Shown: one piece after another, positions 15,205 through 17,764 of the stretch
Layout of the letters: every line of letters starts with the position of its first letter
How positions within the stretch are numbered: the stretch's first letter is position 1
Assembly: GCA_030747075.1 (NCBI GenBank)
Contig: JASLLL010000008.1
Coordinates: 24,842-88,841, forward strand
Direction of reading: 5' to 3'
From: Gemmatimonadota bacterium
Lineage (GTDB): Bacteria > ARS69
DNA length: 64,000 nucleotides
Notes under the pieces: model-generated
What the model saw: the letters and a program-made list of their open reading frames with translations, nothing else
Told to the model about the DNA's origin: nothing
Database searches by the model: none
Translations under genes and position numbers: made by a program

Positions 15205-17160
15205 ATGCCCGAATCCCCCGCGCCCGAGAGCCGCACGCAGATGACTCTGCCGCCGGAGGCCTACGAGGAACTGCCGGAGGGAGCGTCCTTTCCTTCGGTC
15301 GTCCCGGCTTCGCAGTCGCCCCGGGAGTTCACCGCCAAGGCGGCACTCATCGGTATTCTCGTGGGGATTGTCTTCGGGACCGCGAACGCCTATCTGGGCC
15401 TGAAGGTGGGGCTGACGGTTTCGGCCAGCATCCCGGCCGCAGTGATTGGCGTCGCCGTGTTTGGTGTGCTCCGCCGGGGGACGATCCTGGAGACGAACAT
15501 CGTCCAGACGATCGGCTCCGCCGGGGAGTCGCTGGCGGCGGGGGTGATCTTCACGCTGCCGGTGCTCTTTCTGTGGGGCCTGGCGCCCGGCTTCTGGCCG
15601 ATCTTCCCGCTGGCGCTCCTGGGGGGGCTCCTGGGTGTTCTCTTCATGATCCCGCTGCGTCGGTATCTCATTGTGCGGGAGCACGGGCGGCTCACCTACC
15701 CGGAGGGGACGGCGTGCGCGGAGGTTCTGGTCGCGTCGCAGGCGGGCGGTTCGCAGGCGCGGCAGCTCTTCGCCGGAATGGGGGTCGGAGCGCTCTACAT
15801 GGCCGCGACCAAGTTCCTTCGCCTGTGGCCGGAGGAGCCGGATGTTCAGATCCACGGCTCCGGGTACCGTACCTCCTTCGGCGGCAGCCTCTCCCCTGAA
15901 CTGCTTGGCGTGGGGTTCATCATCGGGCCGAGGATCGCGGCGGTGATGCTGGCGGGCGGGGTGGTCGGGTGGGGAGTGCTGATCCCTCTCATCTACCTGT
16001 TTGGCGATAGCGTGAACGCGCCGGTCGCTCCCGAGACCACGGCCCTCATCCGCGACATGGGCCCCTTCGAGATCTGGAGCCGGTATCTGCGCTACATCGG
16101 CGCGGGCGGGGTGGCGTTCGGGGGTCTCTTTACGCTGGTGAAGTCCTCGCCGGTCATCGTTCGCAGCTTCCGGATGGCGGTCCAGAACCTCCGGTCCAGG
16201 GGATCGGGCGAGGTTCATGTCCCGCGCACGGAACGGGATCTTCCCATCACCTGGGTCGCGGCGGCCGCCGGTGCGATGGCGCTTCTGGCCGCGTTCCTCC
16301 CGCTGAAGGTACTGGGCGGGCATATCGGAATCGTGGCGGGCGTCTGCGTCGTGGTTTTCGGCTTCTTCTTCGTGACCGTCTCCTCGCGCATTGTCGGTCT
16401 GCTGGGATCTTCGTCGAACCCCATTTCCGGCATGACGATCGCCACCGTTTTGGTCTGTGCGCTGCTCTTCGGCGGGACCGCGATCGGACTCGACGCGAAG
16501 ATCACCGTGCTGACGATCGGCTCCCTGGTGTGCATTGCCGCGGCGATCGCGGGCGACACCTCGCAGGATCTGAAGACGGGACATCTCGTCGGGGCGACCC
16601 CCCGGAAGCAGCAGATCGGCGAAGTCATCGGCGTCGTGACCGCCGCGCTGGCGATGTCCACCGTGCTGACGCTCTTCCGCGACGGGATTGTCTCGGGCGC
16701 GTTCAAGGCTCCCCAGGCGAACCTGATCCGGCTCGTGATCGACGGCGTGCTGGAGGGGAGTCTCCCGTGGGGACTCGTCTTCACCGGGATGTTCCTGGCG
16801 TTCTGCGTGGAGATCATGGGGCTGCCGACACTGGCCTTCGCCGTCGGGCTCTATCTTCCTGTGCATCTTGCGGTTCCGATCATCGCGGGGGGGCTCATCC
16901 GGCTGGTCGTGGAAAAGCGTTTCTCCGGGGAGGACCGTGCGGAGCGGCGCGAGCGGGGCGTCCTGTACTCATCGGGACTGATTGCCGGAGGTGCGCTGGT
17001 GGGCGTGCTGGCTGCGGGCTTCGCATTCAAGGAGTTCGTGCCTTTCCCGGGGCTGCATGAGCCAGCGCCCCATGTCTGGCACTGGGCGACGGCGGCGTTC
17101 CTCGGCATGGCCGCGACGCTTGCCGTGCCCGTGCTGCGGTCATCCAGGAAGGGGGGCTGA
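15205..17160 (+). CDS. OPT-family oligopeptide/metal-chelate transporter
   Basis: About 651 aa with some 14-16 hydrophobic segments. OPT family features are visible: EFTAKAALIGILVGIVFG followed by ANAYLGLKVGLTVSASIPAA, ETNIVQTIGSAGESLAAGV, and GTACAEVLVASQAGGSQA. The DLKTGHLVGATPRKQQIGE loop and LPWGLVFTGMFLAFCVEIMG follow in the second half. Bacterial members import peptides or possibly iron-chelate complexes; the substrate is not predictable. ATG 15205 is preceded by AGGAGG. The selenoprotein-like gene starts 1 bp after its stop, so both belong to one transcript. Confidence 0.92.
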   Translation: MPESPAPESRTQMTLPPEAYEELPEGASFPSVVPASQSPREFTAKAALIGILVGIVFGTANAYLGLKVGLTVSASIPAAVIGVAVFGVLRRGTILETNIVQTIGSAGESLAAGVIFTLPVLFLWGLAPGFWPIFPLALLGGLLGVLFMIPLRRYLIVREHGRLTYPEGTACAEVLVASQAGGSQARQLFAGMGVGALYMAATKFLRLWPEEPDVQIHGSGYRTSFGGSLSPELLGVGFIIGPRIAAVMLAGGVVGWGVLIPLIYLFGDSVNAPVAPETTALIRDMGPFEIWSRYLRYIGAGGVAFGGLFTLVKSSPVIVRSFRMAVQNLRSRGSGEVHVPRTERDLPITWVAAAAGAMALLAAFLPLKVLGGHIGIVAGVCVVVFGFFFVTVSSRIVGLLGSSSNPISGMTIATVLVCALLFGGTAIGLDAKITVLTIGSLVCIAAAIAGDTSQDLKTGHLVGATPRKQQIGEVIGVVTAALAMSTVLTLFRDGIVSGAFKAPQANLIRLVIDGVLEGSLPWGLVFTGMFLAFCVEIMGLPTLAFAVGLYLPVHLAVPIIAGGLIRLVVEKRFSGEDRAERRERGVLYSSGLIAGGALVGVLAAGFAFKEFVPFPGLHEPAPHVWHWATAAFLGMAATLAVPVLRSSRKGG

Positions 17161-17161
17161 G

Positions 17162-17764
17162 ATGCCCTGGATCGCCCAGGTGGAGGATGACGAAGCGGCC
17201 GGTCTTCTGAAGAAGGAGTTCGACGACGCACGGCGCCGTTCCGGGCGCGTCTGGAACATCGTCCGGATCATGAGCGCGAACCCCCGCGTGCTCTCCGCCA
17301 GCATTCGCCACTACGCGGCGATCATGCTCGGCTCGTCGCCGCTCTCGCGCGTCCGAAGGGAGATGCTCGCCACGGTGGTCGCGAGCGAAGTGGGCTGCCG
17401 GTACTGAACCCGCGCCCATGCACACGACCTCCGGGCAGAGGTCGCGAAGGAGGGAGTGGCGGAAGGCGAGGCGGAGCGACTTGCGCACGCGGTAGCGCGC
17501 GACTGGCGCGCGGCACCGCTTTCGGAGGCCGACCGGGCGCTGTGCGCTCATGCGGCGAAGCTCACGCACCACATGGCGGCGACGGGGCCCGAAGACCTTG
17601 ACGCGCTGCGAGATGCCGGGTTCGACGATGTCGCCATCCACGACGCCACCCAGGTGATCGCGTACTTTCACTACATCACCCGGATCGCGGAGTCGCTGGG
17701 TGTGGAGCCGGAGAGCGAGATCCCCGCCTACGGAGAAACCACCGACACGCGTGACTCTCCGTGA
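17162..17764 (+). CDS. AhpD-like/carboxymuconolactone-decarboxylase-family peroxidase-related selenoprotein (in-frame TGA = Sec82)
   Basis: One frame of 201 codons encodes a normal-length AhpD-like 'peroxidase-related' protein if the in-frame TGA at 17405-17407 is read through. Sequence before it: MPWIAQVEDDEAAGLLKKEF ... REMLATVVASEVGCRY; after it: TRAHAHDLRAEVAKEGVAEG, then AERLAHAVARDWRAAPLSEA and later DATQVIAYFHYITRIAESLG. The family's active site is E-x3-C-x2-C-x3-H; here Cys79 and His86 are intact and the TGA is exactly at the second Cys, giving C-R-Y-U-T-R-A-H. A hairpin suited as bacterial SECIS lies at 17425-17444. The protein would be a thiol/selenol peroxidase or disulfide reductase. 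Reading it as a pseudogene is less likely because both sides are intact and in the same frame. Confidence 0.87.
17425..17444 (+). promoter_or_regulatory. Candidate bacterial SECIS element
   Basis: Perfect 7-bp stem CGACCTC (17425-17431) / GAGGTCG (17438-17444) with a 6-base loop CGGGCA; a G sits at the second loop position, 26 bases after the TGA. Distance, stem length and loop guanine match what SelB requires in bacterial SECIS elements. It lies inside the coding sequence, as expected. Confidence 0.75.

Follow-up and report, generated by a model that had tools for sequence, protein, structure and literature searches.

A predicted AhpD-like (TIGR01926) selenoprotein with a CxxU active site, encoded directly behind an OPT transporter gene in a Gemmatimonadota bacterium

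AhpD-like proteins that carry selenocysteine (Sec) in a CxxU redox pair are known from metagenome surveys, as the original prediction stated: they were first reported from the Sargasso Sea in 2005 (27 sequences; PMC1088965), the GOS survey listed 299 AhpD-like selenoproteins of type 1 (PMC2398784), and a 2026 review names TIGR01926 with CxxU as a selenoprotein family (PMC13188914). The gene described here lies in a window of 64,000 nucleotides (the whole stretch of DNA that was analysed) from a Gemmatimonadota contig, and is a further member of this already catalogued family. It has in common with the described members (COG2128 / TIGR01926) the NCBIfam model, the CxxU motif, and a bSECIS element directly after the UGA; it differs in belonging to a new species and in sitting behind a gene for an OPT transporter. 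We conclude that it almost certainly encodes a Sec-containing AhpD-like (TIGR01926) thiol/selenol redox protein, for which decoding through SelB and the hairpin, and Sec82-Cys79 chemistry, are proposed. Its features, and those of its neighbour, are as follows.

15205..17160, forward strand: OPT-family oligopeptide transporter (TIGR00733); PF03169 350 bits, TIGR00733 392.8 bits
17162..17764, forward strand: predicted AhpD-like (TIGR01926, peroxidase-related) selenoprotein gene; 200 aa, ATG start, TGA final stop
17360..17362, forward strand: Glu67 codon, equivalent to Glu118 in the proton relay of M. tuberculosis AhpD; invariant
17396..17398, forward strand: Cys79 codon TGC, the CxxU partner; conserved in homologue alignments
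17405..17407, forward strand: predicted Sec82 codon TGA, second residue of the C-x-x-U redox pair; Cys/TGA alignment of homologues
17417..17419, forward strand: His86 codon, counterpart of AhpD His137; invariant in alignments
17425..17444, forward strand: predicted bSECIS hairpin CGACCTC-CGGGCA-GAGGTCG; 7-bp stem with covariation and biased codons across 82 sequences

The protein scores 120.7 bits against TIGR01926 (cut-off 81.8) over residues 2-185, and no other gene in the host genome belongs to that family. NF041238, the AhpD-related (seleno)protein CFYUT family, has the CxYUT motif and the AhpD-like domain in common with it, but is longer (357 positions), and the window protein falls far below its cut-off (50.6 vs 175 bits). 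The active site follows the pattern E-x11-C-x2-[C/U]-x3-H, with TGA in the position of the second Cys; on translation, the placement of that codon at 17405-17407 by the original prediction, along with Glu67, Cys79, U82, and His86, is exact. This spacing equals that of Glu118-Cys130-Cys133-His137 in M. tuberculosis AhpD (PMC3141380), a protein absent from the sequence matches at E 0.01; its Cys133 is replaced by Sec82, and its fifth relay residue, His132, by Tyr81, as in PA0269 (PMC3141380). An AlphaFold model built from the homologue alignment (pLDDT 95.3) has the all-helical AhpD fold with the E/C/(C,U)/H residues in a helical hairpin. Its best PDB matches are the peroxidase-related AhpD-like structures 2pfx, 6k40, and 3c1l, and the Bmp8 debrominase is also among the fold matches. 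The structure 6k40 (TM 0.83/0.89, 35% identity) was also found by sequence match, and represents D. radiodurans DR1765, the nearest tested relative, which is 35% identical over its full length (fold TMt 0.89) and shares the E/C/C/H residues but has Cys where the window protein has Sec. Selenocysteine coding, the SECIS element, the fold family, and the active-site residues can all be read from the sequence.

The chemistry is proposed by analogy. In the all-helical fold, Sec82 occupies the position that the second Cys has in the CxxC pair of AhpD, and would probably attack a peroxide (or disulfide) substrate; Cys79, probably the resolving Cys, would then form a selenenylsulfide with Sec82, while Glu67 and His86 would serve as a proton relay. 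Some donor (lipoamide, thioredoxin, or a small thiol) would restore the reduced form. The assignment of Sec82 as the peroxidatic and Cys79 as the resolving residue is carried over from AhpD, and we infer both peroxide as the substrate and the donor. Loss of DR1765 leads to higher H2O2 sensitivity in D. radiodurans, and DR1765 needs its CxxC to rescue the defect (PMC8945050). In the distant relative PA0269, a His-to-Tyr change next to the CxxC has been suggested to weaken peroxidase activity (PMC3141380); the same change, present here as Tyr81, was counted against a peroxidase role. Five peroxiredoxin-type genes without internal stops occur in the host genome, and are possible partners of the AhpD-like protein.

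Selenocysteine coding could be right and the enzyme nevertheless have no link to peroxide, acting instead as an OPT-linked peptide or thiol disulfide reductase or in some other reaction of the AhpD fold, e.g. the reductive debromination by Bmp8. The presence of Bmp8 among the fold matches speaks for such a role, as do OppC-type permease matches upstream at 7 homologous loci and the position of the OPT gene, which was predicted to lie directly upstream with a 1-base gap and does so: its stop is TGA 17158-17160 and the ATG follows at 17162. Because the gap is a single base, the two genes are probably co-transcribed here. Against it, the active-site residues match the AhpD proton relay, and the OPT gene is absent near 82 of 82 homologues, with no conserved neighbour of any kind. 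We regard a non-peroxide role as unlikely, and retain the peroxide-linked reading as the proposal.

The survey of neighbours used tblastn with the OPT query at 82 homologous loci, most of which reach several kb to either side; no OPT gene was found at any of them, while the positive control was found. A Pfam tally of the upstream and downstream ORFs at the homologous loci likewise gave no conserved neighbour, and a conserved operon with OPT was ruled out for the homologues on these two results. The original prediction had called a case beside an OPT transporter less familiar. From the absence of OPT at all 82 loci the adjacency looks lineage-specific; it appears to be particular to the genome of the window or its close kin. 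A more elaborate picture, in which a TIGR01926 subclade that keeps Sec (with no Cys version among the 82 tallied) has here been recruited together with OPT for imported peptide or thiol substrates, seems to us very doubtful.

Two recurrent neighbours were seen in the Pfam tally. Seven upstream ORFs match OppC/DppC-type peptide ABC permeases, apparently at Chloroflexota loci (e.g. L088, L092, L096, L102, L107, L113, L114), which is loosely reminiscent of the OPT gene next to the AhpD-like gene of the window. Another seven upstream ORFs carry MmeI-type restriction-modification methylase domains (L074, L081, L083, L095, L100, L101, and others), and probably belong to closely related BD2-11-like loci, the Pfam tally being without member names.

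Automatic annotation would turn the AhpD-like gene into a truncated ORF or a pair of them, and the mechanical ORF list does report 17456-17764 as a GTG ORF of its own, as would be expected if TGA 17405-17407 were a true stop in a decaying gene or between two separate short genes. Such an arrangement is hardly credible given the pattern of conservation. Protein identity to homologues is similar on each side of the TGA (56-65%), and silent changes exceed replacement changes in like ratio before and after it, which indicates purifying selection on both sides. Conservation is also strong between the TGA and 17456, where the catalytic His lies. Both flanks were described from the start as staying in one frame, and translation bears this out: the terminal stop is TGA 17762-17764, the single internal stop is TGA 17405-17407, and no other stop or frameshift was found in 17162-17764. 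The start codon is ATG in 79 of 81 homologues, at the same start as the gene at 17162. The reading of 17162-17764 as a real selenoprotein gene, with UGA read as Sec, is very well supported. A window-wide filter that required a TGA codon to have open flanks, a Cys close by, and a stem resembling a bSECIS passed three sites, of which TGA 17405-17407 is the sole one in a recognised protein. The two further sites were considered for a second selenoprotein in the window, and rejected; the filter is loose and their flanks are not protein-like.

The hairpin predicted alongside the TGA, a perfect 7-bp stem with a G in its 6-base loop at 17425-17444, is exact in its coordinates, and its spacing, described there as the one that SelB needs, agrees with the published bSECIS model (PMC13188914). 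That model allows a loop of 3-9 nt, a stem of 4-16 bp, G within the first two loop positions, a UGA-to-loop distance of 16-37 nt, and an MFE of -7.5 kcal/mol or lower (PMC13188914). The hairpin has the 6-nt loop CGGGCA with G at position 2 and 7 bp, and begins at the 18th base past TGA 17405-17407, for a UGA-to-loop distance of 24 nt; by folding, its isolated stem comes to -10.4 kcal/mol. When 46 nt are folded alone, another structure is preferred over the SECIS stem (-14.6 kcal/mol, z -1.05); comparative data favour the SECIS stem. Alone, the hairpin is moderate evidence only: of all the TGA triplets in the window, about 2% have one of comparable quality behind them, and 7% of synonymous recodings of the protein produce such a stem.

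Comparison across homologues indicates that the hairpin is selected as RNA. Stem pairing holds in 96.7% of pair cells, vs 24-44% for slid partners. Codon choice within the hairpin is nearly fixed (Leu CTC in 80/81, Arg CGG/CGT in 81/81, Glu GAG in 81/81). In the rest of these genes the corresponding shares are 29% of Leu, 40% of Arg, and 60% of Glu codons. Val is changed to Ile (GTC to ATC) in 14 of the 16 sequences in which Asp GAC has become GAT, vs 0 of 65 otherwise, and Ile ATC never occurs together with Asp GAC in the hairpin. Together the two changes turn the fourth stem pair of these 14 sequences from C-G into U-A; the one at Asp is silent, and the Val-to-Ile replacement is seen although it alters the protein. 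On the tree, each side of the fourth pair has changed about 6-7 times, in both Chloroflexota and Gemmatimonadota. A covariation test on independent lineages found 2 supported pairs, too few for a useful p-value.

Homologues were collected by a scan of genome contigs with patterns drawn from outside the active site, and the 80 nearest, 52-65% identical, were fetched, mostly from Chloroflexota and Gemmatimonadota but also from Planctomycetota and others. All 80 have TGA at the Sec82 codon and a matching hairpin, which is decisive evidence for a real Sec site. That 80 further contigs produced by many projects share this TGA also excludes in practice a sequencing or assembly error for TGC or TGT in an ordinary Cys protein, an explanation for which the draft state of the assembly (61 contigs) could be cited and which the selection on the hairpin and the presence of Sec machinery make extremely improbable as well. 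In a separate search of 200 genomes from the phylum to which the Longimicrobiales locus belongs (given as Gemmatimonadota), 34 of the 34 best places, and nearly all weaker places too, have an in-frame TGA. Sec82 aligns with Cys in four sequences (L011, L015, L016, L018) and with TGA in the remaining aligned sequences; the alignment with Cys homologues that had been proposed as a check thus runs through TGA 17405-17407. Three of four other same-phylum genomes hold TGA-bearing relatives, and SelB was found in 3/3 searched of those four. In this wider sample the subfamily consistently holds Sec rather than Cys across Chloroflexota and Gemmatimonadota, and the window gene is a clear example of a little-studied lineage using Sec.

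One same-phylum genome holds two variant copies. An AhpD-like paralogue (L022, G004:C780:9493-9957, reverse strand) reads G-S-R-Y-U, with the partner Cys changed to Ser (SxxU) and the TGA and hairpin intact. The other copy, which is TIGR01926-like (L020/L021, G004:C191:9801-10279, reverse strand), shows a frame change and is without the active-site stretch, through either decay of the gene or faulty assembly.

The host genome (2.67 Mb, 61 contigs in draft, completeness 100) was searched for selA, selB, selD, and tRNA-Sec, as the original prediction had advised, and all four are present; each of the computational checks advised there came out in its favour. SelA scores 535 bits, selB 329.5 bits (357 bits with its neighbour), and selD 364 bits. 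The one tRNA-Sec (G000:C8:22144-22241; Rfam 73 bits; ARAGORN anticodon TCA, i.e. UCA) lies on the contig of the window, 2.6 kb before it. In the proposed mechanism SelB binds the hairpin, with its loop 24 nt past the UGA, and together with GTP and Sec-tRNA(UCA) reads UGA 17405-17407 as Sec; the sequence evidence as a whole supports such decoding. The chance that UGA is reassigned genome-wide, e.g. to Trp or Gly, is negligible: we found no support for it in the host genome, where the OPT, DnaJ, RpoD, RfbC, and AhpD-like genes all end in TGA and a tRNA-Sec with UCA anticodon stands beside SelA, SelB, and SelD. The SelD gene, outside the window (L024, G000:C4:62873-63799, reverse strand), has an in-frame TGA of its own in a C-A-G-U motif with a stable 10-11 bp hairpin directly downstream, and the host SelD is itself a candidate selenoprotein.
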